Below, piece after piece: positions 37,936-64,000 of a stretch of DNA of 64,000 nt. Every line of letters starts with the position of its first letter. Positions within the stretch are counted from its first letter, which is position 1. The notes below the pieces were generated by a model. The model was not told where the DNA came from, ran no database searches, and was given only the letters and a program-made list of their open reading frames with translations. The stretch spans positions 8,424,214 through 8,488,213 of the forward strand of contig OZ024871.1 in NCBI GenBank assembly GCA_964017185.1. The letters run 5' to 3'. The position numbers and the translations under genes were made by a program. The stretch comes from Rugalucina vietnamica. Taxonomy: Eukaryota > Mollusca > Bivalvia > Lucinida > Lucinidae.

Positions 37936-37954
37936 CAAAAATTAAAAATATTTT

Positions 37955-38525: not shown

Positions 38526-38539
38526 GGTGGGGTTAAAAA

Positions 38540-41971: not shown

Positions 41972-41977
41972 AATAAA

Positions 41978-42477: not shown

Positions 42478-42978
42478 ACTGAAAACCGGCTTTTTGCTTA
42501 TGCAAAAGACGCAGATCAGTGCTTTTGTTTTCGCTTCACGCATAGTACAATCCCTCTTATCTTTACATCCCCGAAATTTCAAGCTTCAAGCAATTTTCTT
42601 TGGATGCACAGGCCGGTTTGTATCAAACCAGATCGGAAACCCCGAAGACCAGTTTCTTGTGTCGCGGCTCTTATATAATCCTCACCGAAAGCTTACCTGC
42701 CCAGGTGTGACTAGAATCTGACCGTCACGAGCAAGACTAGAGGCTCGTTACCTGTTTTGTTTGAGCTTCGCATAAAAAAAAAACAACCCAGCAACATCAA
42801 TTTGAGTTTCAGACCAGGTCAGACAAAAACCGGCCTGTACAGCCACAGAAGCAAAAGAGGAATTTTACTATCCGAGTAGCGAAAACAAAGGCGCTGATCA
42901 GCTGTGCAGTACTGCACATATTATTTGTGTCTTTGTTTTCGCATATATAGATTGATATTTTTCTGATACGTCGGCTCA
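42478..42978. mobile_element. Two MITE-C remnants in tandem
   Basis: The first is about 42478-42672 (AAAACCGGCTTTTTGC...GTCGCGGCTC), the second about 42780-42978 (ends TGATACGTCGGCTC). Both have eroded ends. Counterparts exist in unit B at about 56575-56776 and 56885-57060, so these insertions predate the A/B duplication. Confidence 0.75.
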
Positions 42979-43339
42979 ATTTCTCATGTTACAACGCACT
43001 AAGCGTTTCAGCTTGTGGGCAATAATGCGTTTAAGGAGAAAATTCTTTCATTGTTTTAATCATGTTTCTTTAAGTTTATCATATCATATCATTAGTTCAT
43101 ATTTTATATCAGAAAATATATTGTTGACCCTGTGTTTTGTTGGTTTACTCCTTGAAACGCCTCCTATGACATCACTAAATAGCAGTGATAAAGAGCAGGG
43201 TCAGACACAATGATACGCATTGCCATTTCCACGACATTTATAGTGGGTAACAACTGAAACAACAAGTAGACTAATTACAATAACAAACCGTTTCTAACGA
43301 CAGCAGATTCCCTAATATGTCGAAACAATTGACCTAAAA

Positions 43340-43450
43340 CAATAATGCAGAGTCAAATAACAGGATAAGTGAAGGTAAGCAATGATCAGGAACTATTGCA
43401 GTCAAAACCAAAGTCCATCTATAAAACCTCAGTGGGAAACAAACAAAACT
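43340..43450 (-). mobile_element. Old Penelope 3' terminus shared by units A and B
   Basis: GAAGGTAAGCAATGATCAGG at about 43371, followed by AACCAAAGTCC and CCTCAGTGGGAAAC, is a diverged reverse-strand PLE end. Unit B has the same at about 57375-57450, so it is older than the duplication. Confidence 0.6.
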
Positions 43451-43471
43451 ACATAGATGCACTGATATATA

Positions 43472-44432
43472 CGAGGGGTGATCGGAAAGTACGTATAAAA
43501 ATGCTGTAAAATAACTTTGCGTCAACCGATTGATATGAAATTTTGTACAAATAAACATTGATCCTTTTGTATTTAAATGACATTGCCATTTTAAAATAAT
43601 GACGTCAGACTTTCATGCACGAGACAGCGTCATGACGTCACTTCACGTGACCCGGCGCACCTGTACCCCTGGGTTGACTTTGTTAGTGTATTTGGGGGGT
43701 TTGGAAAAGTTGGTCGACATTTGTTTAATGAAAATAATTTTCTAACATTAATTGACCATTTTTCGAAAGCATATGGCATTCTGATGCTTTATCTACTAAT
43801 ACGGTGAAATTGAATTCAACAGGTTAGCGTAAAATATGCAAGAACGTCGATTTGATTTTGTAAATTTAAATTCAATACCTTGTTTTCTGGCCGATTTTTA
43901 ACGAAATGATAAAAGATTGACATAAACTATAACTAGTAGAGGCAATGTCAAGAATAGATATGTTTCGAGCTTGCAGTAAATATTATACTTTTAAAAAATG
44001 ACTATCCGAAAATGCAACATTTTCGAAAATCTTAACCGTTTTGTCTATTTGACACAGTCGGATTTTGCAAGACTCTACAGACCAATCCATTCGATAAACA
44101 ACCTCGTAACTTTACAAATATAAGCTGTGTACGTTGCAGTTTATAGGTATTAAATAAAATGTGGGCATACGCAATCAAAACGGATGTTACAGTACTTTGA
44201 ACTAAGAAGTATTTTGAAATAAGAATAAAACTTCGACGTTACGTTGCGCCGCATAACGTTAGGCGGTGTTTCCATAACGACAGATGCAACGCACGTGTGC
44301 GTATTATGCATGCGTTATTGCAATGGAATAACTGCATATATATTGCTGCATTATTTGATGAAATTTCATTTCGAAATAACAAACGATAAAGAAATGACAA
44401 CATTTTCATACGTACTTTCCGATCACCCCACG
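43472..44432. mobile_element. Mariner-like non-autonomous element, 961 bp
   Basis: Inverted ends CGAGGGGTGATCGGAAAGTA (left) and TACTTTCCGATCACCCCACG (right) differ at one position and are flanked by TA. The GGGTGATCGGAAAGT-type end is seen in mariner elements. No transposase frame. No copy at the corresponding place in unit B. Confidence 0.75.
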
Positions 44433-44467
44433 TACAAAGAGAACTTACGAAGACATAACGAAAGCAT

Positions 44468-44733
44468 GACCATGCAATATACAGATTTCGTTTTTCAGCT
44501 GTAAATATTAAATTTCCAATGGAAAAAGTTTGATATTTTTAATATTTTTGCTCAAAACATACATTGTGGGTACACGTTAGACGGCAAGGCGGTTCTAAAG
44601 AGTACCCACAATGTATGTTTTGGATCAAAAACAAGAAAGATAGGTATACCCCTGCAAACCCCAGTTTTTCTAAATAAAAATGTGGTTAATGGGGGTATAC
44701 ATTTCACGGATATGTTTTCCTGATGTATATCCC
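44468..44733. mobile_element. MITE-G in unit A
   Basis: Left end eroded (CATGACCATGCAATATACAG), core arms AAAACATACATTGTGGGTAC and GTACCCACAATGTATGTTTT, right end GATATGTTTTCCTGATG. The corresponding unit B region lacks the element. Confidence 0.8.
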
Positions 44734-45002
44734 CAACGGTGTCGACTCATTTACACGAATTTAAGTCAGTTGACGATGTTAGCAAAATCTTGCATCCCAG
44801 ACTAATCTGCCCAGAGCTTATCCCTTACCAAGGTCTCACAGACCGAACAATTATCATTAAGCTATATATCACATTTAATGTCGATTAAACAGTATTAAGA
44901 ACTGTCTTATAGACGAAAAAGTCAGCAATTTCTAGTTATTTATAAACATCTTGTTAATTTCCTGTTTTGACGGTTCCTCAAAATGGTCTATAGAATACAT
45001 CA

Positions 45003-45215
45003 GACGAGCCGCATCATTCAAAAACCTTTACAGATACTGCACAGCTTATCAGCGCCTCTGTTTTCGCTCCCCGGAGAATACAACACATCTTCTTTCATTC
45101 GAAATTTAAAGCTTCCAGCCTCCTTCTGTGGATGTACAGGCCGGCTTGTGTCAAACCTAGTACGAAACTCCGCAGTATAACGTGCATTCTCTTAGATTCT
45201 CTCACGATGCGGGTC
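45003..45215. mobile_element. MITE-C remnant shared with unit B
   Basis: GACGAGCCGCATCATTCAAA...CACGATGCGGGTCTG, with TGTACAGGCCGGCTTGTGTC inside. The counterpart is at about 58030-58250. Confidence 0.7.
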
Positions 45216-45765
45216 TGATTTCAGTCACATACTTTATCCAAAATATTATATGCGCCAAATATATGTTGACAACGGCCTTTAATTTCCTACCAGTCGGATT
45301 CGAATCTTGTTTAAAAATCTACGAGCACATATTGTCACTCCTTTAAAAACATCTCGCATGCTTGTTAGGCTGATTCAATTTTGAGGCTGTTTAGATCCAT
45401 ATGATCATTAGACTACATGTATCGTACCGCTGAATCCATCGTAACCGGAAATTGCGATCATGTCATCCGGTTTAATAAAACTTGTTGTACGTAAAACTCA
45501 TGCACTGAGCTGCTTTTTTTCTGTTTGATTGATCTGTTGCATTGACATTATGGAATGTGGAACACTATATATTACCATTTGGCGATGCATAATAGTGCCC
45601 TAAATGTTTATTAATGGTCAGCTGGTAATTGATAGAAAGAAAGGATTTGATCCAGTTCAATTGAAATCCCAAACCAAGATACAAGTACAACACAAGACGC
45701 CACCTTCATTTGAAGAACCTGAATGAATGGCAAGATAACTAGCTCTTTCCCAGCAATCTAGCCAT

Positions 45766-46011
45766 CTGGGGCCTGTCGTTCAAAGCTTTGTTAGCTTAAC
45801 GCCATCATTAATACCTCAACTCGTTAAGTAAATGCCGACTACAAAAGCAAACACACTTACATTTTTGTTGATAAAATGTGAGAATCCTTTGCATTGCAAA
45901 TGATTCTCATATTTTACAACAAAAACAACAGTGTATTTGTAATATTGCCATTTGTAATTTTAACAACTCGTTAACTAACGACATCGTTAATTTTGAAAAA
46001 CTGGCCCCTGG
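45766..46011. mobile_element. hAT-like MITE with empty site in unit B, 246 bp
   Basis: Ends CTGGGGCCTGTCGTTCAAA and (inverse) CAGGGGCCAGTTTTTCAAA. The interior contains a hairpin of GTGAGAATCCTTTGCATTGC and its approximate complement. Unit B reads AGCCATCTCACTAGAATAAAC without it. Flanks CTAGCCAT and CTAGTATA could be a decayed 8-bp duplication, which with CAGGGGCC ends suggests hAT. Confidence 0.75.
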
Positions 46012-46189
46012 CTAGTATAAACTAAAACAAGGAATGGCGTTTACAACAGAGAGGTCGATACACTGTACAAAAAGAGCAACATACACCTACTGGACATTAA
46101 ATGAATGATGAACATACATTTATCAAAAGACTGTAAATGGTAATTCCAATGGACAGCTCTTTCCCAATTTGCTGTCCCTCAATTACCCC

Positions 46190-46250
46190 GTAAATAACTG
46201 CGAAGCTGGTCTGCGTCAGCAAATTGTTGGTCTTCTCTGACGCGGCTCAA
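46190..46250. mobile_element. MITE-C right-end remnant
   Basis: ACTGCGAAGCTGGTCTGCGT through CTGACGCGGCTC. The fuller unit B version is at 60078-60305. Confidence 0.6.
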
Positions 46251-46894
46251 TTTTTATGGCTGTAATCAAATAACACGCATTGATACAAATTTACAGATGT
46301 AATATTCTATCAAAAATGGAAATATTGCCTGTTGGGGTTACTATGTTTTAAAAATTTAGATACATATCGTGGGCCTCTGAAAAAATAAAACATTTATCGT
46401 TTAGGTAAAGTGCCAAAGTCGGGGTACCAACAAGCGGATGACAAGACCGCTGAACAAGTTTTTCGATTTTTCTTAAGCATCAAAAATATTAGTTGCGAAA
46501 CCTCACTCCACTACGTTCTTTTGCGGACCTTGATGGTTTCATTTGATCAAAACAATATATCCGATTGCATAAAGAAGATTACACATGGTTGGCACGTGGT
46601 GAGTGAATCCAAAATTCACCTTGCCGTCACGGCGCGCGCCTTGACGTCACAGCGCGCGCTTTGACGCGTAACCGACGAGAAATCTTATATTAAGATCTGA
46701 AATATATGATATTAGTTTATCGCGTAAATAAAAGCAAAATGATTTTCAATTTTGACATATTTGGGAGTAGGATATATGCAAAGTGTTGGTTGTATTACAA
46801 AGTATACAAAAAGAAACATAAACACTTGTATCTTTCAGGTCGTTTTGGGTCTTCGAGGTTTTCATGAGATACTGTGGACCTCCATTGCAACTAG

Positions 46895-47171
46895 CATTAC
46901 GAAAACATGCCCAATGTAATATGCATATATTTCTAATGTTGTAAAAATTTAAAATTTTCATCAGAAAATTTGATATTTTTCTTATTTTTGCTCAAAACAT
47001 AGATTGTGGGTACACGTTAGAACCGCCTCGCTGAGGCGGTTCTAACGAGTACCCACAATATATGTTTTGGAGCAAAAATAAGAAAAATAGGTAAACCCTT
47101 GCATACCCTAGTTTTGCTATATAAAAGTGGGGTTCAAGGGGTATACATTACACGGACATGTTTTCCTGATG
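46895..47171. mobile_element. MITE-G, full length, absent from units A and C
   Basis: CATTACGAAAACATGCCC to CATGTTTTCCTGATG with an almost perfect central palindrome (GTTAGAACCGCCTCGCTGAG and its mirror). The corresponding positions near 29175 and 63590 have no element, so it arrived after the unit duplicated. Confidence 0.9.
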
Positions 47172-47799
47172 AATAGATTATTTATACTGTGACTGACGTG
47201 GAAATACAAATCAATAATGATAAATAATTCATTTATAAGAGATTTTGACTTAATAATGCATAAGTCATAGATATTATCCATCATGGCTTCCCACGTATAG
47301 GATTATGCATCTGTTGTCTTGTTAGCTCATTGCATCATTACATAATACAAAGGCTGCATGCAAGCATTTGACTGACTGTGATTAGCATACACTTCATTAA
47401 GAGTAAGAAAATAAAGATTCAATATAAAAAATGAAAAAGGCCCAAAATTTAAGCACGATGCATGATGCATCATTTCCCAGTCCACTTCGTGTCGCAATTT
47501 TAACATACAACAAAACAACTAAAATCCAGTTGATACAAAGGGACACAAAGTAATAAGCATACGTATGTTTTTGTTTTTATTTAATGCCGTGGACAGAGTG
47601 ACCGTTATTCAGTTATTTTTTGCATTAACGAAAGAGAACAAACAGATGTTTCTTGATATCAATAGAGAATTTATTAATTTTGGGAATACACACAGACTAG
47701 TTGTTTTGATACGCAAGAGCACAAAATCATAGAAAGGAACAGTAAATCAGTTAGATCAAAATCATCATTCTGAAATAATAAAACACAAAATTACCAATT

Positions 47800-48115
47800 A
47801 AATGTACAGTAATTCTTACCATTATTGTTTCATGATTTCGTTCATGGTATTGGAAATTGTTGTTTTTCAACTCGTTTCTACTGAGCTTTAATTACTGAAT
47901 GTTTTATGTGTCAGCCGTTTCCAATCCGTCTTTCCTATGTATCAAATGAAGTTACAGTCGCTTAGGGCGTAGATCAGTGTAGGAATGAGATTGATTATAA
48001 CTCTGATGAAGACTGTCTTCCACAAATATACGACAATTATCGTAAATAAGATCATTACATGGTATACTTACTAGAATTTACGACAATGAGAAAAGTGCCG
48101 TAAACTCTAGAGAAA
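47800..48115 (-). pseudogene. Unit B counterpart of the 32988-33338 frame, with stops
   Basis: Clearly homologous to unit A, but TTA has become TAA within the hydrophobic run (SLS-stop). Further stops follow (for example after PKRL and TAD). It cannot encode the unit A product. Confidence 0.55.
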
Positions 48116-48207
48116 AATTAGACTTACGGTTTCGTACTAAAACAATGAAATAAGTCTCAGGTTAAAGCATAAGTTTGCCAGAGCAGGAGACATGTATGCT
48201 TTGAAAT

Positions 48208-48241
48208 TAGATTTTGTTGTTGTTGTTGTTGTTGTTGTTTT
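48208..48241. repeat. (TTG)n microsatellite
   Basis: Tandem TTG/GTT units. Confidence 0.9.
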
Positions 48242-48557
48242 TCTAACAGAGCAAAGAAAGAGAAACATAGAAAATCGAACTATGCTGTCTAAATGCTTTG
48301 AATGATTTCAATTCTGCCATCTAAGATTTCTTGTTGAGGTGTGGTTACTTGGAGCAGCGAAATTATACTCAGAAGAACAGGTTTAGTCAGTAACTTTGAC
48401 TAGCCTTACACTTATTGTGGCATGCTGCGTATCTTAGCTGCTCCCCCTTGTTAAATATGAAAAGGCAAAGTCTTGCTTATTGCGATAAAAAAAACCTGTA
48501 TGAGTAGTACATTTCAACACAGTTACTGGCCCTTTTTTCAAAAATCGATTTTTTACC

Positions 48558-49832
48558 TGTTACGAGCAAGCGTAACTGGCAAATAAAAGAAACTTTCAAC
48601 CCTAAAAATGATATAAAGGATCTGGCTAAACCAGCAAAGAACAACCAACAAAGTTTAAAACTTAATATTCTAATTTACAAATAAACAAATAAATGCAATC
48701 AAAACATACCAATAAATGAGTAAATAAGTAAATAAATAAGTAAATAAATAATTAAATAAACAACTTACAGTATAAGTGTAAATAAATCCTTGTCCCTCAA
48801 AATGTCAGTTCACAGATATCCTCAATCCAGTTTCCTCCATAAGAGTACAAGATGTATGTCCATCGTTTATAATCATAATCCATCAAAAACTAGAAACAAG
48901 CAAAACTATAAACATTAACTAACTTCGAATTTCTGAATGCCCGAGACTGGATTGAGACCTGAATATATACATCTGAGAAAAATCTACTAGCTTCTAGCAA
49001 ATTATATAATAAACTGTTCTCTAGAACAGTAAAGAATGTAACAATTGTTATTCAGAAGCCTTCGGCAAGAAAAACTTCCCGAAGGATCAAGGACCGAAAA
49101 GACCATTTAAGATTTAACCAGAGAAAACTGGAATATTAGGGAACTATATATTTAAAGTACATTATTTCATATGACAAATAAGTTATTTCAGTTTCATCTG
49201 GAATTCACTATAATGTACTAATAGAATTTTATATAGTGTGCACATAACTTCTTAATTATATAATATTCTAACACGACGTTATCGTTTTTCCCATTGAACC
49301 TAATGGAAACGGCATCCTGTGCAAATTAACAATAATTCACTGTAAACAAGATTACGCGCGTTAGGTGGCGTATTTGTGACGTCGCACATAAAGATTCTTG
49401 TCCGCCGAGAATGAGTCCACTGGCTAACATTTCAAAATGTAAGCATTTAATTATTAGTCGCGTTAGAATCGAAATAATTTTACTTTACGCTGAATTATGT
49501 TTGATTAACGCGTGATATTGTCGAGCAGATGCAATCTGCCCTCCAACATCCCGCGTTAATCACGATAATTCACCGTAAAGTAAAATTATTTCTCAAGTCA
49601 TAATAATAATCAACGACACACTTCCATCAAATTCCAGGCTATAAATTCTAGAAACAAAAGGATAACATACAACGAAATCAAAGTTACTCCCCTTTGATCA
49701 CAAGTAAACCCTTTTATTAAAGCAAGCAAATACTAGCCAACATCATTAAGAGATAAAGCCAATATTATTAAATTTATCATATACATAACATAACAACCAG
49801 ATAAATAGTAATAATAGTTCTTTGATTACTAG
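48558..49832. mobile_element. Unit B-specific 1.27-kb insertion with a foldback core
   Basis: Unit A runs from the block ending TTTTTT (about 33700) to TTGTTGTCAGTGAC (33750), while unit B carries about 1.27 kb extra. It is AT-rich with a degenerate TAAA-type repeat (48695-48770). A ~40-bp inverted repeat lies at 49471-49512 and 49552-49592 (GAAATAATTTTACTTTACG and its inverse). No ORF. Element boundaries are approximate. Confidence 0.5.
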
Positions 49833-50045
49833 CGTTGTCGAATAGACATTGTTGCCATTGACAAAAAAAAAACGAAAAAATCCCAGCAAATTCAGTCGAA
49901 GTCTCGAGAAATAACAGGTCAAATAGTCAGAATTTGGTTATTATCTCTCCTTTATTTAAAACAAGAACAGAAATTGGTAAATATACTCTGACATAATCAC
50001 ACATGATAGTTCTTTTTTCATTGAAATGGTAGGCACCATTTATAA

Positions 50046-50201
50046 ATTTATCACTGGTTATTGCTATAACAAACTGTCGAGGAGTTTTAGAGCTACAGCG
50101 ATTTAAATTGTCCAAATGGGATTATACCCGTATTTTCTCTATTTTCACTGACTAAACTTTCGCCTCTGAGCATATTACATCGTAAGAGATTTATTTTGGC
50201 A
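50046..50201. repeat. 156-bp inverted duplication, left arm
   Basis: By eye it is identical to the reverse complement of 50581-50736, with 379 bases between. The equivalent block occurs once in unit A (about 34140-34260) at much lower identity. Confidence 0.9.
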
Positions 50202-50261
50202 AATTGCTTGTTTCTTTATTACATAAACCCAACACAGATAATAGATTACGTCACAATATAT

Positions 50262-50438
50262 ACAACAATGTGGTTTCCGACCAGGTCCGACACAAACCGA
50301 GCTGTACAAGCACAGAAGACAGCTAGAGGCAGGAAATTTCGGATTTAGAAAGTAGAGGAGTTGTATTATCCGTGTAGAGAAAACAAAGTGTCTTTGGTTT
50401 CGCAAATGCTGATTGTTGGTTTACTCATTAGGCGGCTC
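50262..50438. mobile_element. MITE-C, left end missing, in the inverted-repeat spacer
   Basis: It starts inside the family at CAACAATGTGGTTTCCGACC and ends TTACTCATTAGGCGGCTC. Unit A continues across this point without an element. Confidence 0.8.
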
Positions 50439-50580
50439 AAATATTTACCCAAGCTGTGTTTGTGTGTTCTATGCTACTGATTACCAGATATAAGCGAAAC
50501 CGTTGCCTTGATATGACTTTCGCGGAATTTTATCAACTCACTATTACATTGTCTTGTTACGCTACGATCACGACGTGTCG

Positions 50581-50736
50581 TGCCAAAATAAATCTCTTAC
50601 GATGTAATATGCTCAGAGGCGAAAGTTTAGTCAGTGAAAATAGAGAAAATACGGGTATAATCCCATTTGGACAATTTAAATCGCTGTAGCTCTAAAACTC
50701 CTCGACAGTTTGTTATAGCAATAACCAGTGATAAAT
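50581..50736. repeat. 156-bp inverted duplication, right arm
   Basis: Mirror of 50046-50201. Frames in this region (50456-50689 and 49927-50115) are mirror shadows. Confidence 0.9.
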
Positions 50737-51847
50737 ATATATGGGTTATATGCATTAACAGAGAGTTCTGTGACAACTGAGCATCAAGCATATTTACAAG
50801 GTTAAGACAGTTTGAAAAAAATGGAGGTTGCCTAAAAGTCTTGCCGGATGAATTACATTAAATTGTAAAGCAATTATTTTCACATTTCATTTTGAGGAAT
50901 TGGTCGTATTTTTCTCCCTATTTTACAACCTGCATAATTATTATGTTTGTCAGCGGGTATCAATATTTAGGATAACTTTGTACCACAAGAACGTTTTTAA
51001 TTGTAGCCTCGTAACCTTGTGATACTCTTAAGCATACAAATGGAAATTACAGCATTTATATCTTTTGTTTTCGAGATCACCCATTGAACTGTTAGACAAA
51101 ATGAACATTCTAAGCGTTTTCACAGTTTCTGGTTCTTTTTGCTTACATTAAAGCCTTCTGATCTTTTCATTAACTTCCAAAAAACAATAATGAATTGAAC
51201 ACGTCTCGCATATTCAGCATTGAAAATGATAAATTCTTCTGTTACATGTAATAAAAGCGATGTAAGTTTTTAAGTATGCAAGTATGCATATAGCAAGTGT
51301 ATACATGTAACGATGTATTAGAGGAAGTGATCGTCAGAACACGAAACTATAGTTTGCTCAGAAGACTGAGACAAGCCAAAGCTCTTACTGGCGCGAGCTT
51401 ATTAGAGAGGCTGCGAATAAACCAAGAAGTTCATAATTATATTGTGAGACTGCGTTTATAAAAACTTTGATTGACACATAAATTTTCTGACAAGGGGTAA
51501 ATCATGAGGTGGCTTGTACTTAAATTCTTGTTAGCATTTCACAGCATGTAACACTGTGTCATGCCGACCTTTCATTTGGTTCGGCATTTTATCTTCAGAT
51601 CTTCTAGAGCTTTTGATATATGTTTTATTATCCTGCTAATCCTATCAAGTGTTTGATGTCTGATTATCAACTCTTTAGCCAACAGCAGAAACCACAATAT
51701 ACAAGGAAATGTTCTGTTTCGTTATTATACCATAACTCAAAAGTAGATGATGGTATTTATCAGCGAGTTTTACTTTTACTTAAAGCGAGTATTTAATGTT
51801 CTTCGAGAAAAACAACAACACAAAGTATGTTTTTATCATAGGAATGA
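50737..51847. other. Unit B non-coding sequence
   Basis: Homologous to 34880-35930 and 38540-38930 of unit A. It contains the empty site for the unit A MITE-C at about 51149. Nothing coding. Confidence 0.55.
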
Positions 51848-51988
51848 ATTTTATTTTTGTTGATTTTATCGATGTGTAAACTCAGGCGAATCACTCACAA
51901 ACTAAATAAAGCCCGAAGGGCTTTAAGAAAAAGTTTGTGAGTGATTCGCCTGAGTTTACACATCGACAAAATCAACAAAAATAATAAT
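51848..51988. mobile_element. Near-perfect foldback MITE
   Basis: Arms of about 55 bases (TAAACTCAGGCGAATCACTC with its inverse) around a second hairpin, AAAGCCC-GAA-GGGCTTT (51907-51924). Only one or two mismatches, so it is young. It lies in a block absent from unit A. Confidence 0.85.
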
Positions 51989-54045
51989 TGATTCCTTATA
52001 ATTCCAACTTTGTTTCATTACTCTGCATTTGTCTACATTGATTTAAATGTTTATAGCCAGCGGAAGGAAAATAGAGCAAAACGGATCTTCATGAGGCAGC
52101 CATCTTGAAAATTTCCAAATCATAAAACACACTTCTCGCAATGAATAGAAGCTATAACTGGCTTGCTATAGGCAGGCTGTCAAAGCGGGAGCTGTAAAAC
52201 GTCTCCCCTTCATTCAAAATTGTGCGTTTGGGAGAAAATATCGCTGTCTGGACCGATAGAAAGACATGTCGATTTTGAACTGGGGCTCGGAATATTAGAA
52301 ATTCAAACATCAAATTTCAACACACAACAGGAAGATTAAAACACTTACCACGCGATGTTCTGTTAAAAGAAAAGGCTTCCATGTTAACAAAAATTCCAAA
52401 TATTCATTTCGACGCCTTCAAAACGCGTTCATCCATTGTTTGTATGACGTTTAGATTTGATGACGTCAACGTTTTTGAGAAGAAACGTCACGTTATCACG
52501 TAACGTCGCGCCGTGTCAAGGTAAAAACTGAGTATTCTTACGCATTGCTTTTATCGAAGTATAAAATCAAAATAATTGTTAGATCCTTTGGAAGCAGTAA
52601 AACATTTAAAGCGAGAAGATGGACTATATTGTACAAAGTCTTCCAAACAACCAACCAGAATGTAGGGAATTAGAAAAGTTGGAATTATTACTACATATAC
52701 TCTACGTCCACGTCTTTTTAATGTTATGCCATTCATATAATAGAACGACCATTTGATTTCGGGTGGAGGGGACCAGTTTTTGAGGACCGAATTTTGTGAT
52801 ATTTCCTGATATTGTAATAACAGTATACCATGGAAGGGATTACTGCAAATGCATTCTACTGATTAAGTTTGATCAATTTCTTGTAATTCCCAAATACATA
52901 TAGTGCAATATCATAACCAGATTTACATGCAGTTAACCGACTTTAAGTGTTTATCTTTTCTAAAGAATGTTATATGAAGTATTAAAGTACACTGGATCTA
53001 TTACAGTTGCTGAATCAGAATTTCATTTCTCTGAGAATGATCTTCGCCCCATCATTGCTGAAAAAGAAAAATTCAGACAAATTATGGCTGAAGTGTGTGG
53101 GGAGATAGGATCTGCTTATTAGACCGGATGAGGAACGATATGTATCTTGTATTTATTACTGGCATCAAGTGAGGCGAATAATGGCAAGTCGAAACGAATT
53201 TGTCATGACCTCAAACATATTAAAGACCCGTGGAAAATAGATAAGATTGTATGTAATAGTATGTTTCTACGGAATCAAATAGTATGTCTGGCGGATTGCT
53301 CTACCACGTTGAAGCAAATCTATTATGTTATTTAAAAGTGACCTTATATAAATCTATCAAAATTCCTTATAGTTAATCTTTGGGGAAATGTGTCTGGTTA
53401 CAAACATTAAGTGGTATTTCCATGAAACGATATATACGTCTGTTTATACATGTTTGTCCATGTGTCGATACTGCAAAACCCACATCGCATTATGTAGAAC
53501 AGAATGGAATTTGATTTATGTGATTCTTAATTTTACATGGAGCAGTATCGCTGTCTTAAACCAAACTCAGGCATTATTCTGTTTATAATTAGCATTCATA
53601 AAAAGTACGAAATTGCTAATATGAAAGAAAGTAAAATATCTATACTTAAGACTTTTATACGCTCGGGTAGTTTGGCAACCGCCTAACCAACAACCCCCCA
53701 ATCTTATTCGCCAAAACTGAGCTTAGCAGGGCAAATACTCCCATCAAGCTTCCTGGTCCATCATTATGTGTATCATATACAACCGTCATAGAGAGACGGT
53801 CGTAACGTTCGATAACACCGCCTATTACTGTATCAGTATAAAATCCTTAAAATGCCAATTTTATGATATAGAAGTTATAATCATTGTTTTTCGGCAAATG
53901 CAAATCAACTTAATCCCACATTAACCATGTATCCTCTTTGTTACGACGCCATATGTTGCTATTCTGTTCCCTTAAAGAATTTAAATAGAAAATTCGCCCA
54001 TGAAATATAAAAAAAAACTCTGCCTATGAAAATGACTAATTTTTT
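51989..54045. other. Unit B intron-like sequence
   Basis: 52740-54045 is homologous to 38990-40780. Homology stops a few bases before where the TM6-TM7 exon should begin. A stretch at 52560-52650 is an inverted copy of a motif also found at 40365-40450 (GGATCTAACAAATATTTTTA region). Confidence 0.55.
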
Positions 54046-54100
54046 AGATATTTTCAATAAATTTTGCTCAAAACATAGATAGTGGATACACGGTTCTTAG
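54046..54100. mobile_element. MITE-G fragment
   Basis: TTTTGCTCAAAACATAGATA and GTGGATACACGGTTCT match one core arm of MITE-G. It sits at the breakpoint replacing the receptor exon. Confidence 0.6.
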
Positions 54101-55010
54101 TAGTATAAAATAAATCAGCTACGAGAGGTGCGTAATTTGTACCCATCGAAATTCCAATAATCTAATATAAATATTATCCAGGAGATAGGATTAGGCGTCG
54201 CACACATTCTGACATGACCAAAGTGTATACCGACTTTGGTCAGAGGAAGTGAAAAAAGCCTTTCTGTCATTACATGCCAAATAAAGTGAACCATAGTTTT
54301 TAATGCCCTTTTGAAGGTCCACTCTATCAATTCCAGAAGTTTTTCTTTGATAAGATTATGTGGTACTGTTGTATGCAGAGTAGAAAAATCATAGGTGGAC
54401 AACCTCGTCGCACGGAACCCTCTACACTTCAATTTACTGAGCACCTCGCCAGAATTTTTATTGACCAAAACCAATTTTTATTTGAGGTTTCATACACTGT
54501 CTCATAGTATCTTATAACATGAGATTTAATAGCAGTAAGACAGGAAGTTTATAATTTAGAAAGTTCAGTAGTAGTACAAGAGCTAGAATTTGCAATAAAT
54601 CTAGCTTTGTATGGTCTCTTGTGAAGCTTAGGTAACCAATACATCGTAGGAAGTTTGTATTGGCCTTCATTGACACAAGCAGAAAACTTAACAGGTAAAT
54701 CGTTTAAGTGAGCAGTAACTACAGACATTTCATCAGTATCTGTCTCCAGATAAGCCCTGGTACCATCTAGCTCCTGTTTTAAGGTGTTAACGTAGTGAAG
54801 CCTACAAACGACAATCACATAGTTTGCGGCTTTGTCTACCGGAACCAAGACATACTTTCTATGAAATTCTTGGATACCCTGCTTCAAATGCCTAAATGAC
54901 GATTTAGGGTTTTTTTTTGAAAGATTAGTATTTTGTGAATAAAACTTTATACGTTTATCCACGATAGTGAAGATACTTCTTTTCCATTCTTTAAGAGCAT
55001 TATCCTCAAC
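54101..55010 (-). pseudogene. Penelope-like RT, N-terminal half, inverted
   Basis: Reverse-strand coding region in two main frames: 54549-54962 with VLVPVDKAANYVIVVC, ETDTDEMSV and MYWLPKLHKRPYKARFIA, and 54115-54474 with NSGEVLSKLKCRGF and STYDFSTLHTTVPHNLIKEK. It ends near 54101 just after the ...MGTN.APLVADLF region. PKLHK-type and DFSTLYT-type motifs are what tie this family to Penelope-like RTs. Frameshifts and stops make it non-functional. Confidence 0.75.
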
Positions 55011-55064
55011 ACCCTCTCGTTTACACCATCGATTACCGAAATCATTCTATGCAAAGCAATAGAA

Positions 55065-55418
55065 TCTCTGCTGAAGCTGAGGGCGAGGTTAGGTACCTGT
55101 AAAACTGGTTTAAGCTCGCCAGTAATTTTAGATTTCTGATCGTTCCAATGCGATACTTCTGTGGTAGTTTTTATTGCTTTAAGTCTGTGGCGTTGAATAT
55201 TTTTGCTGTTTACACCTTATGTACGTTTTTTATATTTATAATTAAGTTTAGGTAACTGAGTGGCCATCCATTGGTAAAATAGCTGCTCATTCAGCTTACG
55301 ACATGCTTTCATTGTATAAGTACCTGATTGTTTATTTATTTTTCCCACCTCGGTTTTTGGAGTGGGAATATATTTCTGACTGCGCCTTTTCCTGATCATT
55401 GCTTACTTTTAGCTTTTC
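55065..55418 (+). mobile_element. Penelope-like 3' region (tail), opposite to the fragment before it
   Basis: It starts inside the 3' non-coding part (CTGCTGAAGCTGAGGGCGAG) and runs to a diverged terminus (CCTGATCATTGCTTACTTTT). With 54101-55010 it forms a head-to-head pair that occupies the place of the lost TM6-TM7 exon. Unit A homology resumes just after it at 55420. Confidence 0.8.
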
Positions 55419-55929
55419 ATATGAAATTTGAAATACATGTTTCATGTAAGACTCTGCCATACGACGTGAAAATGAATTTATGGTCACAAAGTATGATTAT
55501 GGCATTCACAATGTCATTGAAAATGGCGCCATGTACCTCTCTACAGAACAGTTTATTAATATCAAGTTGTCGCCAAATAACAGCGATGCCATATAAAATA
55601 TATTACATATTGATACCTGGGGGTAAACTGGTGGTAAACTGTCGACACATATTGTACCTTAAGCACTGAGGGTTGGGTAGGCTGATCTCAGTGGTAAGCT
55701 ATTTTTAAAGTCCCAACGTTTTATAGGTGGTCTTTGCCAGAAAAACTTTGAATGAATGTAGATACATGTGGTGAATGCCATACTCTGATGTGTAGCGCTG
55801 TTACGAAGTAGGCTATGCCTGATCAGAAACAAATCAGTAATGCCAAACCGAATCGTTAAGACTGTTAAGCATGTGGTTGATGTCAAACCGCTTTCTTGAC
55901 ATTGTACTACTACAAATGGTTTATTCCAG

Positions 55930-56007
55930 GCGGATAATTCTGTCAGTGAAGACTCGGCACATAGTGTAAACGAGTCTGTTCCAAACGCTGCAGTGACCGT
56001 AACTTAA
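55930..56007 (+). pseudogene. Conserved GPCR tail exon in unit B (25 codons), possibly an alternative terminal exon
   Basis: After an acceptor TTTATTCCAG it reads ADNSVSEDSAHSVNESVP..., identical in protein to the last 25 residues of the unit A receptor, then TAA. Six nucleotide differences are seen, all synonymous (including TGA to TAA). Relative to unit A exactly 354 bases (118 codons) are missing between GCCGAT at the exon start and GCGGAT at 41894, so the frame and acceptor are preserved. A TM6-TM7 exon no longer precedes it in unit B, so it is either a relic or is spliced from elsewhere, for instance from 41018, which is phase-compatible. Confidence 0.6.
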
Positions 56008-57310
56008 AATAAATTCATGCCAATGAAATCGTAGATATATTTGTGGTCATCGTAGGGAAACTTAGTTACCCACTTGTGCACGATAGAGTCATATAAACGA
56101 CTGTTTAGCATCGCTGCTATTTACAAATATACTATCAGAATTGCTCAGCTAACGACAAAAATATTATTTCTTGGCCAGACTCTGGTGTCATTAGTAGAAA
56201 ACGTGAGTACAATGAGCAGTACGGCATATTCGTTAGACGCCAAATTAGTAATAGTAATATTCACGCATTTTCATGTAATATTATAAAAATAACCTGGCTT
56301 TGTCTATGTCGGGCGTCATTCCTCAGGCTGATCAAAAGCCAAAGCATATTTGCTTTTCGAAAAACAAGCAAGCAAAATGTGAGCCCCGTATCCTGTTTTG
56401 TAAGGCAACCAGTGCAACCCGAGATGTGTCACCGCAAACACGCAGTATCCCATTTCGAATTACATGTATTATGTTTGCTAAATGGAATATCATCGAGTCC
56501 TAAAATATAAAATATAACCACTCCGGATGCCCCTAATATAACTGAAAGTTTACTAATCACTATTCATAGCTAGGCCTTACCGAAAAGCGGCTTTTGCGCT
56601 AAATGCGAAAACAAGGACGCAGATAAGTGTCTTTGTTTTGCTGCACGGATAGCAAAATCCCTCTTCTTGTTTCATCCAAAATTTCAAGCCTCCGGCAATC
56701 TTCTGTGGCCGCACAGGTCGGTTTGTGTCAAACCTGGTCGGAAACTCCGAAGATCAGTTTCCTGCGTCGCGGCTCACATATATGCCTCACCGAAACCTAC
56801 CTGCCAGGTGTGACGGTGTGACTAGGATCAGGCTGCCGTGGTAGCAAGACTAGAGGCCGGTGGCCCTTTATATTTGAACAGTCGCATGAGAAAAAAAAAC
56901 ACAACAATTTGGGTTTCCGATCATGTTCGATACAAACCGGCCTGAACAGTCACAGCCGCAGGAAATAGAAACTTGAAATTTCTGATTTAAGAAGAAGAGA
57001 AACTGTTATATCTCAGTAGCGAAAATAAAGGCGGTGATCACCTGTGCAGCTGGGCATATGCGTTGAAGGAGAAAATGTTTTCATTGTTTTAATCATGTTT
57101 CGTATCATTAATTTATATTTTATATTAGAAAATATATTGTTGATTCTGTGTTTTGATGGTTTACTCCTTGAAATGCATCCTATGACATCACTAAATAGCA
57201 ATAACGATGAGCAGGATCAGACAATGATACGCATTGCCATTTCAACGACATTTATAGTGGGTAACAACTGAAACAACAAGTAGACTTATTATCATAACAA
57301 ACTGTTTCTT
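56008..57310. other. Unit B downstream region, with two MITE-C remnants
   Basis: Collinear with 41972-43300 of unit A. It contains MITE-C remnants at about 56580-56776 and 56885-57060. No other gene. Confidence 0.6.
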
Positions 57311-58029
57311 ACGACAGCCCATTCCCTAAAATGTCGAAACAATTGGCCTAAAACAATAATGCAGGGAGAAAAGTAAAGGTAAGCAATGATCTTGAACTAG
57401 TGCAGTCAGAACCAAAGTCCCTCCCAAAAACCAAAGCGGGAACCAACCAAAATTACGAGTACATAGTCGTACTGAGGTGAAGTAAAGGAGTCAAGGTACC
57501 GAAATCGTATGTCGTAGCTCATTAACATCCGTAATAAAATTGACGAATACATAATATGTAGTCATACAGGCATGGACCCCCCTAAACAGAGGGTGTGGAT
57601 AGGTGTTCGCGAAGGGTGAGCATCACCTGCCCATTATAATGCACACGCCATATCCATATATACAAATATAACTTACGAAGCTTTTTCCCTAACGGTGTCG
57701 ACTCATTTACATTAATTTGACGTAAGTGGTTTATACTGGATAAATTACAAGCTAATTTTTCTATTGACTTGTAAATGGTTTGTCATTGAAGATGTTAGCA
57801 AAATCCCGTATCCAAGACAATCTTTCTGCACCGTGTGTCTAGTGCTTATCCCTCACCAAGGTCAGACAGACCGAACAATTATCATTGAGCTATATATCAC
57901 ATTAAATGTCGATTAAACAGTATTAAGAACTGTCTTATAGACGAAAGACTCAGCAATTTCTAGTTATTTATGAACATCTTGTTAATTTCCTGTTTTGACG
58001 GATCCTCAAAATGGTCTATAGAATACATC

Positions 58030-58250
58030 AGACGAGCCGCATTATTCAAAAACTTAAACAGATACTGCGCAGCTTATCAACGCGTCTGTTTGCGCTCCGC
58101 GGACAGTACAATACATCTTATTCACTCGAAGTTTAAAGCTTCCAGTCTCCTTCTGTGGCTGCACAGGCCGGCTTCTTTCAAACCTAGTACGAAACTCCGA
58201 CGACAGTGTAACGTGCATACTCTCAGGTTCTCTCACGATGCGAATCTGAT
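58030..58250. mobile_element. MITE-C remnant shared with unit A
   Basis: GACGAGCCGCATTATTCAAA...CTCACGATGCGAATCTG, counterpart of 45003-45215. Confidence 0.7.
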
Positions 58251-58311
58251 TTCAGTCACATACGTTATCCAAAATATTATATGCGCCAAATAAATGCTGA
58301 CAACGGCCTTT

Positions 58312-58490
58312 ATAGTTAAGTAAGGTAACTGAGTGGCCACCTATTGGGAAAATAGCTGCTCACTCGGCTTACGATATGTTTCATGGTATAAGTGCCTGAT
58401 TGTTAGTTTGGTTTTTCCCACCTCGGTTTTTGGAGTGGGAATCTTTTTCTGATTGCGCCTTTTCCTGATCTTTGCCTACTTGTACCTTTT
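58312..58490 (+). mobile_element. Penelope-like 3' terminus, first of two
   Basis: Starts in the last ~180 bases of the PLE (TAAGGTAACTGAGTGGCCAC) and ends TTTGCCTACTTGTACCTTTT. Unit A has the uninterrupted site ACGGCCTTTAATTTCC at about 45275. Confidence 0.85.
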
Positions 58491-58550
58491 TTTTAGTCGG
58501 TAACTTTGACTAGCCTAACATCTATTGTAGCATGCTGCTTGTCTTAGCTG
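58491..58550 (+). other. 60-base copy of array sequence between two Penelope ends
   Basis: It matches about 48382-48440 of unit B at roughly 52/59 positions and shares other words with unit A 33536-33592. It has been copied from some member of the array into this insertion. Confidence 0.75.
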
Positions 58551-58637
58551 TTTGGTTTTTTCCCACTTCGGTTTTTGGAGTGGGAATCTTTTTCTGATTG
58601 CGCCTTTTCCTGATCTTTGCCTACTTGTACCTTTTTA
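58551..58637 (+). mobile_element. Penelope-like 3' terminus, second of two
   Basis: TTTGGTTTTTTCCCACTTCG to TTTGCCTACTTGTACCTTTT, followed by the resumed unit sequence AATTTCCTACCAGTCGG. Confidence 0.85.
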
Positions 58638-59047
58638 ATTTCCTACCAGTCGGATTCGAATCTTGTTTAAAAATCTACGAGTACATATTGCCACGCCTTT
58701 AAAAAAATCTCGCATGCTTGTTAGGCTGTTTAGATCCATCGATAGGCGCATATGATACCTCATTAGACTACATGTATCGTACCGCTGAATCCATCGTACC
58801 CGGAAATTATGATCATGTCATCCGGTTTAATAAAAAAGTTGTACATGAAAACTCATGCTCTCAACTGGAATCTGGAACACTATATATTACCATTTGTTGA
58901 TGCATGATATTGCCCCAAATGTTTATAAATGGGCAATTGGTAATGGATTTGGTCCATTAAAATGGAACCCCCAATCAAGATGCCAGTATGGTAATAGTGA
59001 CAACACAAGACGCCATCCTCATGTTAAGAACATGAATGGCAAGATAA

Positions 59048-59298
59048 AAAGGTACAAGTAGGCAAAGATCAGGAAAAGGCGCAATCAGAAAAAGATCTCC
59101 ACTCCAAAAACCGAGGTGGGAAAAAACCAAACTAACAATCAGGTACTTATACCATGAAACAAATCGTAAGCCGAATGAGCAGCTATTTTCCCAATAGGTG
59201 GTCACTCAGTTACCTTAACTTAATTAAAAATATGAAAACATACATAAGGCGCCAACAGCACAAAAAGACATAAAACAAAAAGAACCACCACAGAACAT
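59048..59298 (-). mobile_element. Penelope-like 3' fragment with empty site in unit A
   Basis: A reverse-strand, 5'-truncated PLE flanked by ATAA on both sides (59044-59047 and 59299-59302). Unit A reads GGCAAGATAACTAGCTC at the same place, so both the insertion and its duplication are visible. An internal deletion near 59262 removed ~50 bases of the consensus. Confidence 0.9.
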
Positions 59299-59787
59299 AT
59301 AACTAGCTCTTTCCCAGCAATCTAGCCATCTCACTAGAATAAACTAAAACAACGATGTTAATTACAACAGAGAGGACGATACACTGTGCAAAAAGAGAAC
59401 ATAGCCTACTGTATATTAAATGAATGATAACATACATTCATCATTATAGAGACAATAGGTAAATCGAATAGACAGCTCTTTCCCAAAACGCTGTGACTCA
59501 GTTAGTAGAAATAAACCACGGTTACTTAAGGCATGCAACGATGCCAGCATTTCCAACAATGATACACTGAAAGAAGAAAACATATGCAGTTTAAAAGTCA
59601 TTATGTTTGAAACGATGTAAAGTTGCTTTTCTTTTTACTATACAACCTGTAAAAATGGAAAGAAAAACTGCAGACAAGTTGAAGAGATAACTATCCCTGA
59701 TTTCCTTGTTAGAAAAATCATCACTACATCTGGAATACTGCTATATTGCATGTTGTAGGCATCTGTTATGCACTTTCAACATACTAT

Positions 59788-60012
59788 GAGCCACTGCATG
59801 GAAAAACCAACAATCTGCATAGGCGAAAACAAAGGCGCAGATCAGCTTCGCAGTAACTGCGAAGCTGATCAGCGCCTATGTTTTCGCTACACGGATAGTA
59901 CAACTCTTCTACTTAAATCAAAAACTTCCAGCCTCTAAGCATTTTCTGTGACTGTACAGTCTGGTTTGTGTCAGATCTGCTCGGAAACCCAAATTGTTGG
60001 TTTTCTCATGCA
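59788..60012. mobile_element. MITE-C
   Basis: GAGCCACTGCATGGAAAAAC...CTCATGCAAAGGCT, with a perfect-looking central hairpin (GCAGATCAGCTTCGCAG). The CTGCATG end variant resembles the 33857 copy. Confidence 0.8.
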
Positions 60013-60077
60013 AAGGCTACTATATCTGATGTTTGAACACTCACCGTTTGTATGGTGCCAGGTATTGAAGCCAAATG

Positions 60078-60305
60078 AGCCGCGTCATGAGAAAACCACC
60101 AAGATGGTTTACGAACAAGACCGACACACAAACAGAGCTGTACAAGCACCGAAGCCGGGCACAGAAGATGGCTAGAAGCTGAAAAGGTTTTATTTGAATT
60201 AAGAAAGTAGAGGAATTGTACTATCAGTGTAGCTTACTGCGAAGCTGATCTGCGTCTTTGTTTTCGCATAAGCAAATTGTTGGGTTTTCTCATGACGCGG
60301 CTCAA
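60078..60305. mobile_element. MITE-C
   Basis: GAGCCGCGTCATGAGAAAAC...CTCATGACGCGGCTC, flanked by AAAT and AATT. Part of the centre is deleted. The unit A counterpart survives only as the right end (46190-46250). Confidence 0.8.
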
Positions 60306-60795
60306 TTTTTTATGGCTGTAGTCAAAGAACATACGTTGATGCAATTTTACAGATGTAATATTCTATCAAAAATGGTAAATTTTATATTGCCTGATAGGGC
60401 ATTAAGAATGTGTATCGTGGGTCTCTGAAAAAAATAAAACGTTTATCGTTTAGGTAAAGTGCCAAAGTCTGGTACCAACAAGCGGATGACAAGACCGCTT
60501 AACAGCACCTTGATGGTTCCATTTGATCAAAACAATATCCGATTGAATAAAAAAGATTACACATGGTTGGCAAGTGACGAGTGCATCCAAACCTGACCTT
60601 GACGTCACGGCGCGCGCCTTGACGTCACAGCGCGCACTTTGTCGCATGTACGAGGAGAAATCTAACATTAAGATCTGGAATATATTCGTTTATCGCGTAA
60701 ATAAAAGCCAAATTCCCGGGGCAAAATTATTTTTAATTTTGAGATATTTGAGAGTAGGATATATGCAAAGTCTTGGTTGTATTACCAAGAATACA

Positions 60796-62904
60796 CACCG
60801 TCTATCAACGTACACCGGATATAGCGATTGACCTATCGAGGAAATTAGGACGCGGTGCACTACGAGGTCAGTTTTTGTTCTATTATTTTTCATATAAAAT
60901 CAAAGTCGGCTTGTCAAATATGGAAAATACATCGTTGATACATTGATCTTTATCTGTGACTATGTGACACAGACAGGAAATGCGTGTATGTGTGATATTC
61001 AATAAAAAAATACCTGCCCAATCACTAATATTTTTCATGACAATTACCTGCCTAACTCCAATCTGCACTTTTAAGAGCTATAAGTTGTTAATTATGACCA
61101 AACTTCGCATCGGCAACTATTCCTTATTGCCCAACGTCCTTGAAAACGAAGTTTCACATTGCAACTGCTCCTGGCTTTGTGGATATTTATGAAAAACAAA
61201 ACTTGCCGGTGTACCGTCTATAGCAGTCTGTTGCTATGGTAGTGTACCGTTTATAGCTAAAGCAGTGTACGGACTATAGCTATGAAAATATGACTTTTTG
61301 GACGAAAAAAATACGTTTTTAGTTAAAATTATGTACGAATAATAATAAAACATTATTGTACATGCAATTATGGAATATTGCCACTGACCAGATCAGTATT
61401 TTCTGCATTGTCGTGGTCTGAAATCGGATGAAGAAAGACAGGTATAATAGCTTGAATGATTACACATGACGTTCGACGTGACATTCACTTTCCCGTTTAC
61501 ATATTGATAATCGAGAAACACCAAACAAAAATAGAGCATATGTCACGACAATAAGCACGAAAAGGAGTATAATAAAGCAGTTATTGCATCGTTTTACAGT
61601 TTGTTGTAATCCACTTTTAAAGCGAAACATACACGAACTTGTTTCATGAAATAATTGCTCAGCTATTTTAGATGTCCTTACTTAGAATATGTTCATATGT
61701 TTCTTTCTTTGTTTTTTTTCTTCCTTTCACTCTTTCTTTTTTAGTCTTTCTTTCTTTATAGTATTCGTTCGAAAGTGCACCAAATTTTTCGTTTTAGTAA
61801 TGCAAAAGTTAAGGAATTTCACTTCCTTTTTAAGAAGTGTTAGAGCTTATTCATTAAATAGAATATTGGTCAATTTTGAAATTGTCAACCCGGAGTTCGG
61901 TAGAGTACGACGATACATACCTCCGCCGCGGTGTTTCCTTGAACAAAACATATATCCAGGAATCACTGGCCCCGTCCCGACATGACAAAATTGGGATATG
62001 TATAGTTTGACTGGAACGTTAAAACCCATACCAAACTAAACCTGTGGAATTTTTGTTTCAAAAACTAACGTCGTCTTAGCCGTGTTCATATGCGACATTT
62101 GCACCCAGGTGTATTTTTGTACCTCGGGTGTAGTTTAGGACTCCGGAGCGAGAGGAATTAGTTCGATACATACGTCTTTGAGGACGACATTTTAAGCGCT
62201 ACATAGTACTGATTTACACGCAGCCGCTGAGCATATGAACGCAAATAGAAGAGAAAATGTAACGTAATTACATCTAATACTCCAAAAGTAGCAATTTTGT
62301 TATTAAGAAAGGATGGGGTTGGGGTCTGTGGTATGTCCGAATTGCAAAAACTTGTACTCCATCGTCAAAATTAACGTTTACAAGCACTAAACGGTTTCAT
62401 CCGAGATGATTTCATCTTGCTATAGACCGTACACTACGAAAAGGGCGTTTTACTATAGGTGGTACACCACTGCGCTATAGACGGTACACCAGATAACTTT
62501 GGAGAAGAGGAAATTATCGACAATTGCAATTTCAAAAGTAACTTTAGAGTATTTCTAGTGACTGTCCTCGATTTGCTAGTCATTCTATCAGGTATTCCAT
62601 AACATTGTAGATTGATATTTTACCGACACATTTGTTACATCATGTATTTTCGCGACTGACTAAAGAATGTAAACAGTGATTATGGACAGATTTTTGTTAT
62701 TCGTAGCTCTTGTAGATGTTTGCTAAACACCTGTTATTCTAATAACCATTCATTAATATCTAAGCGACTAGAGTGAAAATTACTTACAGAGTATTTTAAG
62801 GTATTTACACGAAAAAAAAAGAGAAATACTGACCTCGTAGTGCACCGCGTCCTAATTTCCTCGATAGGTCAATCGCTATATCCGGTGTACGTTGATAGAC
62901 GGTG
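60796..62904. mobile_element. 2.1-kb DNA transposon with 77-bp TIRs, 5-bp TSD and visible empty site
   Basis: The terminal inverted repeats 60796-60872 and 62828-62904 look identical over 77 bases, beginning CACCGTCTATCAACGTACAC. ATACA flanks both ends (60791-60795, 62905-62909). The unit A/B junction at 46802-46812 keeps the single ATACA. Inside, copies of GTGTACCGTCTATAGC-like words occur near 61209, 61240 and 61262, and inverted near 62421 and 62473. They may be transposase-binding sites. The longest frame (61689-61985, low-complexity Phe/Ser start) has no transposase features, so the element is non-autonomous. A CAC start with a 5-bp duplication is compatible with Transib/RAG-like elements but does not prove it. 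Confidence 0.85.
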
Positions 62905-64000
62905 ATACAAAAAGAAACATGAACACCGGTTTTTGGTCTTCGTGGTTTTCATGAGAGGCCCGTGGGGGCGCTCTCTGGTCCGCGGCGTACCGATGCGCGA
63001 ACAAAGGATTGTTAAACATACCCTAAACAGTGTGATCGACATTTTGAATTTGACCCCCCTTTTCACTGTGTTCTCTTTAAAATGTGACCATACCCTTTCC
63101 AGTGTAGTCAATTAAAACACTAGGAAGCACTATTTTTCCCTCAATTCATTCTTTATTAACCATCTTCATCCAGGATGCCTCTACCCAAACCAAAGGGATC
63201 ACAATAAACGAAACAGATTTTGTTGGGAAATTGAATCTGTCAATGACACTATGAATAATAAGCACAACTCGTTTAACCAAACTATAGATACAACTGCAGT
63301 TTACTATAGATACAACTGCAGTTTTGGGAAGACGAAGTCATTTCGGCCCCGCTGCCGTGTTAAGTTTGGTGCTCAGCACACCCCCGTATCACACAAACAT
63401 ACCATTTTTCATCAAAATCAGCATTTTTCCTACCCTAAACGATGCACAGCGCTGCGCACTGCCCTGCCTGAAAAAAGTACCCTTTCTCATCGTTTTTTTG
63501 TTCACGCATCGGTACACCGCTGACCAGGGAGTGCCCCCTCCCCCCGGGATGAGAGGTTTTCATGAGTCACTCTGTGCCTTCAATGTAACTTTAATAGCTT
63601 ATTTATACTGTGACTGACGTGGAAATACAAATCAATAATTATAAAAATTCATTTTAAGAGATTTGACTTAATAATGCATACGTCATAGATATTATCTATT
63701 ATGGCTTTCCACGTATAGGATTATGCATTTGTTGTCTTCTTAGCTCATTGCACCATTATTGAATACAGAGGCTGCATGCAAGCATTTGACTGACTGGCAT
63801 TAGCATGCACTTCATTAAGAATAAGAAAATAAAGAATCAATATCATGAAATAAATGAAAAAGGCCAAAAATTTCAGCATTATGCATAATGCATCATTTCC
63901 CAGTCCAACTTGTACTTATAAGTATGTGCAACATATAACAAAACAACTTAAATCCAATTGATACAGACGGGCACAAAACAATAAGCATATGCATGGTTTT
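62905..64000. repeat. Start of tandem unit C
   Basis: From 62905 the sequence matches the B start (ATACAAAAAGAAACATGAAC...GGTCTTCGTGGTTTTCATGA). It is interrupted at about 62953-63552 by an unrelated ~600-base block bounded by GGTTTTCATGAG on each side, then matches B 47187 onward and A 29180 onward to the window end. The block contains a 22-bp tandem duplication (ACTATAGATACAACTGCAGT twice, 63283-63326). No exon is reached. Confidence 0.75.

Follow-up and report, generated by a model that had tools for sequence, protein, structure and literature searches.

Does a peptide-receptor gene that is followed, about 14 kb downstream of its last exon, by a second and shortened copy of its own C-terminal tail use that copy as an alternative last exon, or is the copy what is left of a duplication? 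The question arises in a window of 64 kb (C3:8424214-8488213), which is the whole stretch of DNA that was analysed and to which all coordinates without a contig name refer. The full tail belongs to unit A of a tandem array and the short one to unit B. We rather favour the view that the short copy at 55930-56007 represents the shortened remains of a duplication of the 3' end of a peptide-receptor gene present in single copy, most likely a leftover, and the evidence that supports or opposes this view is set out below.

The Receptor Gene and Its Relatives

The exons of the intact receptor in the window are as follows.

40806..41018, plus strand: intact TM6-TM7 exon, 71 codons, both boundaries in phase 0 (Pfam 7tm_1, 3e-12)
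41540..41971, plus strand: complete unit A tail exon, 143 codons and stop, with a Cys cluster in its first part

Judged by its motifs and domain matches, the intact receptor is a PrRP/NPY/tachykinin-like class A (rhodopsin-like) peptide GPCR. Pfam 7tm_1 matches both of its coding parts, the DRY-type, CWxP and NPxxY motifs used as the mark of class A are present as IDRF, CWLP and NPIIY, and its nearest solved relatives lie among the PrRP, NPY, NPFF and tachykinin receptors. For the TM6-TM7 exon the best of these are the PrRP receptor (1.1e-12) and NPY2R (1.2e-12). One intact copy of the exon was found in the genome, 38 further matches (E <= 0.001) reaching no more than 52% identity, and a search of viral contigs with it returned no relative. 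It ends at the donor AGA|GTGAGT (41018/41019), with phase 0 on both sides of the junction, and the tail exon starts at 41540 as cag|GCCGAT. From its position, helix 8 presumably lies in the first part of the tail exon. A protein query with this tail exon across the genome matches only itself and the copy in unit B.

No TM1-TM5 exon was seen in the 64-kb window by motif and hydropathy search. It is located in an open stretch at C3:8346132-8346932, whose coding end corresponds to window position -77281 and which ends RSKRK|GTATGT in phase 0, matches Pfam 7tm_1 at 9.5e-42 and has the PrRP receptor as its best solved relative (1.4e-31). The intron from this exon to 40806 is about 118 kb long, and the fit of the two parts, their phase and their strand suggest that the TM1-TM5 part and the TM6-TM7 and tail parts form one gene. 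Downstream of the TM1-TM5 exon lie two partial copies of its TM4-TM5 end (C3:8355365-8355682 and C3:8367763-8367981), both decayed by stops or frame gaps; the copy at C3:8367763 retains an intact donor. Another receptor match, at C3:8274692-8275150, lies about 71 kb upstream of the TM1-TM5 exon and is 51% identical to its residues 81-236.

A likely paralogue is found at the other end of C3, with a TM1-TM5 match at C3:82536412-82537116 and a TM6-TM7 match at C3:82619000-82619200. The two matches probably belong together; they are about 82 kb apart, in a layout that resembles that of the intact receptor. Long introns at the TM1-TM5/TM6-TM7 junction may be old in the receptor family. About 0.8 kb past the TM6-TM7 match, a stretch that begins with Ala-Asp (GCTGAT) behind an acceptor, at the same junction, runs open to a stop, and its end is not alignable with the tail of unit A. 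Because the paralogue tail also starts with Ala-Asp, the long tail is probably the ancestral form and the short tail of unit B the derived one.

The Two Copies of the Tail

The stretches compared between units A and B are listed here.

41540..41893, plus strand: 354-nt segment without a counterpart in unit B, between GCCGAT and GCGGAT
41894..41971, plus strand: last 25 codons and TGA of the unit A tail, the stretch common to A and B (pairwise comparison)
55920..55929, plus strand: acceptor-like TTTATTCCAG immediately before the unit B tail
55930..56007, plus strand: shortened tail copy of unit B, identical 25 residues, stop TAA (pairwise comparison)
56008..56083, plus strand: start of the unit B 3' flank, with AATAAA at 56008-56013; 6/76 differences from A 41972-42047

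Pairwise comparison of the common stretch shows six differences in 78 bases, falling in six separate codons (41932, 41950, 41953, 41956, 41965 and 41970 in A; 55968, 55986, 55989, 55992, 56001 and 56006 in B), and all six are silent. Both copies translate to ADNSVSEDSAHSVNESVPNAAVTVT followed by a stop, TGA in A and TAA in B. The initial annotation, which had reported six silent differences with the change of stop codon among them, is exact base by base. No replacement is found among the six changes, and no stop or frame change interrupts the 25 codons of unit B. The tail occurs twice in the 1.09-Gb genome (47 contigs), in A and in B, by DNA query as well as by protein query; a search for more tail exons in unit C and beyond had been suggested, and by these DNA and protein searches none was found in unit C, in unit D or in the rest of the genome.

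The copy in unit B lacks 118 codons of the tail. In unit A, an internal GCGGAT at 41894 lies 354 nt (3 x 118) from the exon start at 41540, and the GCCGAT at the exon start forms with it a direct repeat with one mismatch. Alignment and phase bear out the earlier description of a gap that begins at the exon boundary and keeps the frame behind an acceptor. The frame is kept because 354 is a multiple of three, and since the repeats lie at the ends of the deletion, its exact position at the exon boundary needs neither selection nor a hidden intron. The sequence has the shape that a repeat-mediated deletion would leave, and such an event would account for the position of the gap. A junction of 41018 with 55930 would be in frame, given phase 0 at 41018, and phase, acceptor, stop and poly(A) signal are all present at the tail of unit B as sequence, which speaks of their presence and not of their use. 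The stretch upstream of the acceptor has 10 pyrimidines of 18 in B vs 14 of 18 in A.

The difference in pyrimidines is connected with an insertion in unit A.

41506..41532, plus strand: 27-nt retroelement 3' end in the intron of unit A, 7 nt before the tail exon, absent from unit B

Indels in the flanks had been part of the earlier description, and a second length difference is indeed found just upstream of the tail, where A is the longer; most of it is due to 27 nt inserted into A rather than to a loss in B. That B had lost 28 nt was considered as the cause and rejected, since 27 of the extra bases of A are the end of a retroelement. The first 21 nt of the insertion have 12 exact matches in 264 kb, 41506-41532 included, and the fragment differs from the usual 3' end of the retroelement family by one mismatch, in the T run. 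With the insertion removed, 18 nt in A and 16 nt in B lie between AAATG and CAG, and the remaining 2 nt, a target duplication or a small indel, stay unexplained. The insertion supplies most of the pyrimidine tract of the A acceptor. The B acceptor is probably the older form, the tract of A being mostly retroelement-derived.

The Tandem Array and Its Decay

At least four tandem units, A-D, make up the array that contains the 3' end of the receptor gene; their limits come from alignments.

29185..47171, plus strand: unit A
47174..63592, plus strand: unit B
from 63556-63593 to 77933, with more pieces at 135979-138178 (window coordinates): unit C
138178-149935 (window coordinates): unit D
54094..55417: old retroelement sequence at the place of the TM6-TM7 exon of unit A; 5' part 54094-55057 on the minus strand (inverted), 3' part 55062-55417 on the plus strand

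Over 17 aligned blocks, the tail block excluded, units A and B show 697 differences in 5690 positions (12.2%), and units B and C show 141 in 1559 (9.0%); the counts are 337/2906 for A and C, 233/2101 for A and D, and 62/681 for B and D. On one shared stretch A and B differ by 55/573 (9.6%), so that the separation of A from B, C and D as a group is weak. No TM1-TM5 sequence was found in the units of the array, and the exons of unit B would therefore probably be usable just as alternative 3' exons of one gene. The earlier claim that unit B has no TM6-TM7 exon is confirmed, with the old retroelement sequence occupying its place. No Pfam match at 0.001 was obtained for the ORF of the retroelement family, and its PDB match (0.018) is weak and unrelated. 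Of the TM6-TM7 exon, unit C retains just the final 15 codons (46 nt), in which the Asn of NPxxY is changed to Tyr and a Glu to Val. As would be expected of decayed duplicates, the other coding remnants of the array are broken. All three of the other coding remnants examined are damaged, whereas the tail of unit B keeps its acceptor, frame, stop and AATAAA and has no replacement or lesion inside its 25 codons.

When unit B lost its TM6-TM7 exon bears on how long its tail could have been of use. A tree was built from 25 copies of the 3' part of the retroelement (24 from 264 kb and one from another locus, copies below about 250 nt or short of the 3' end being dropped), and in it the copy in unit B is sister to the copy beside the exon remnant of unit C with 96% support, and the terminal branches are 0.070 each. 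The two copies differ at 36 of 343 positions (10.5%) and four other B/C blocks at 105 of 1216 (8.6%), and the flanks of the retroelement, which correspond in B to A 41170-41191 and in C to A up to 41182, point to one intron site. The sister relation holds among the 25 copies of the tree; genome-wide, there are copies on other contigs no more distant from that of B than that of C is, the one at C8:51296502 being likewise 87% identical to it and ranked above that of C (40 of 10247 candidates scored). The inverted 5' part of the retroelement in B was not found in C. Unit C keeps the last 46 nt of the exon and the intron up to 41182, and as both are absent from B, unit B lost that part after the B/C split. 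Since A 40781-40972 is missing from both, the exon may have broken before the split, and the loss is undatable. The probability of zero replacements since the loss of the TM6-TM7 exon is about 0.02 if the loss came with the duplication, about 0.06 if it coincided with the B/C split (0.048 per site over 58 replacement sites), and higher if later. Selection on the tail of unit B after this undated loss is neither shown nor excluded by these values.

Selection on the Shortened Tail

The rate of change gives no sign of selection on the tail of unit B, because the divergence of the tail is ordinary: when the A/B alignment is cut into 5040 overlapping windows of 78 nt, 14.7% of them show no more than six differences. 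The tail exon and the next 76 nt (41894-42047) have 12 differences in 154 positions vs 63 in 414 for the flanks (one-sided Fisher p 0.012). The earlier statement that the flanks differ more is correct locally but does not extend to the array at large, where so many windows are as low. With a flank rate of 0.152 locally, a held A and a free B would together give 154 x 0.076 = 11.7 differences, and since 12 are seen, the low local rate needs no constraint on B.

The pattern of change is more informative than its rate. If all changes were random, six silent differences out of six would have a p of 2-7e-4. This overstates the signal, since most of the changes that accumulate in A, the working copy, are themselves silent. 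On a model in which A is held and B is free, the chance that a difference is silent is 0.39-0.46, which gives a p of 0.003-0.010 for six running; a working exon compared with a free copy will still show about 39-46% silent differences, and caution is needed in that six silent ones amount to no more than moderate evidence. Three decayed copies of other coding parts of the gene have 28 silent and 33 replacement changes in 61 changed codons (18/40, 9/18 and 1/3 silent in the single copies), when 15 codons with gaps are set aside and changes to stop are counted as replacements. The six silent changes of the tail differ from these with a Fisher p of 0.013, the first two copies being related and not independent, and against each of these two alone with a p of 0.014 and 0.037. 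With branch lengths of 0.08-0.05, a Poisson model gives a p of 0.010-0.055 for a free B without any replacement. All of these values rest on six changes in a finding that was chosen for being striking. Taken as they are, they favour purifying selection on the tail of unit B during part of its history over neutrality throughout. The proposal that the tail stayed under purifying selection after the duplication is to that extent supported, while its continuation since the loss of the TM6-TM7 exon is neither supported nor excluded.

Origin and Use of the Shortened Tail

A sequence of events can be proposed from these comparisons. The 3' end of the gene (TM6-TM7 exon, short intron, tail exon and 3' flank) was copied in tandem into the at least four units now seen. 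In unit B, a deletion between GCCGAT and GCGGAT would have joined the acceptor in frame to the last 25 codons. In the likeliest history, the cassette of unit B was usable for a while, then lost the TM6-TM7 exon and the 118 tail codons, and is now a relic, so that the tail of unit B is most likely unused today. The silent-only differences would come partly from the constraint on A, and probably also from a period in which B was held. A decaying duplicate is suggested by the array itself with the broken remnant of unit C, by the decayed TM4-TM5 copies, by the presence of just two tails genome-wide, by the direct repeats and by the Ala-Asp start of the paralogue tail; the ordinary divergence, the count of 12 in 154 that a free B would give and the smaller number of pyrimidines at the B acceptor are also consistent with it. 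Against decay speak the absence of replacements among the six changes, with the p values given for a held A and a free B and for the decayed copies, and the intact acceptor, frame, stop and AATAAA compared with the three damaged coding remnants. An early loss of the TM6-TM7 exon would moreover make zero replacements unlikely without selection.

These same observations are what a working alternative last exon would explain, a distinctly less probable reading. The donor at 41018 would then splice either to 41540, giving the 143-codon tail, or to 55930, giving the 25-codon tail, with 41540 and its poly(A) signal skipped. The resulting receptor would lack the Cys cluster and keep the Ser/Thr-rich end, and helix 8, placed where we assume it to be, would go too, since the junction lies at NESFR|AD. 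The acceptor, phase 0 on either side of the junction, the unbroken frame with its stop, the AATAAA and the silent-only change all suit such an exon, as does the absence of TM1-TM5 from the units, which would leave the exons of B a role as 3' exons of the one gene. The weaker pyrimidine tract of B is a point against it, as is the need to skip a nearer acceptor and poly(A) signal across about 14 kb, and the undatable TM6-TM7 loss means that constraint since that loss cannot be claimed. The fuller version, in which a tandem duplication of 3' exons only, with a repeat-mediated deletion beginning at the exon start, made an alternative last exon, the receptor without helix 8 is now expressed and its 25-residue phosphosite-rich end is selected, is slightly more doubtful still. 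Local gene conversion, by which A would have refreshed the B exon and its proximal 3' flank and made the copy look younger than its surroundings, fits the lower divergence of 41894-42047 but is improbable: alone it would not make all six exon changes silent, 14.7% of the array windows are similarly low, and a constraint confined to A would halve the rate. That the 25 codons were ancestrally a separate exon, whose preceding intron A lost exactly and whose preceding exon B lost in an intron-to-intron deletion, is more improbable still. It would give the boundary in B its exact position without calling for a chance breakpoint, but the direct repeats already account for that boundary, the GAA|GCG of A at the supposed junction is a poor donor context by the donor consensus, and the tail exon of the paralogue starts at the same Ala-Asp and is open to its stop, with an end that is not alignable.

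Relation to Known Systems

The decaying duplicate, our preferred reading, has a familiar background, as unprocessed tandem duplicates of parts of genes decay in place and leave pseudo-exons. Like these, the units retain introns, are about 9-12% diverged and have damaged coding remnants elsewhere; unlike them, the tail of unit B itself has so far no replacement, stop or frame change. Splice signals derived from retroelements are also known as a kind, and the retroelement end that forms most of the pyrimidine tract of the A tail acceptor resembles them. It differs in being a 27-nt terminal fragment only and in that the exon start is common to the paralogue, so that the acceptor probably predates the insertion.

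The closest comparison for a used tail is the human chemokine receptor CCR2, for which PMC9102224 describes C-terminal tails of CCR2A and CCR2B that come from a local and a second exon and differ in the helix 8 region and in Ser/Thr content. As in that system, one class A receptor body would here potentially receive two C-terminal tails by way of a second exon. The CCR2A and CCR2B isoforms, unlike the present case, are described there as shown by RT-PCR and function, and their second tail differs in sequence, whereas the tail of unit B, seen here in genomic sequence, reproduces the first in truncated form. No matching published arrangement was found in the open-licence literature, searched by title and the start of the abstract. 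Use of the tail of unit B, if it occurs, would provide a clean example in which partial duplication of a 3' end and one small deletion give rise to a GPCR signalling isoform.

Other Repeats in the Window

The abundant retroelement carries an open frame of 310 codons at 7717-8646, without a Pfam match at 0.001. At 2656-5078, on the minus strand, an ORF of 317 codons overlaps another of 511 codons; the longer matches an endonuclease family and the shorter resembles, by eye, a reverse transcriptase; this is probably a fairly fresh element of the non-LTR type. Unit A contains a tandem repeat array of 455 bp in 2.9 copies at 31037-32368, with many related copies along 264 kb. In unit B, a 161-bp inverted repeat (50041-50201/50581-50741), with arms 99.4% identical and about 380 bp apart, looks like a recent inverted-repeat element.
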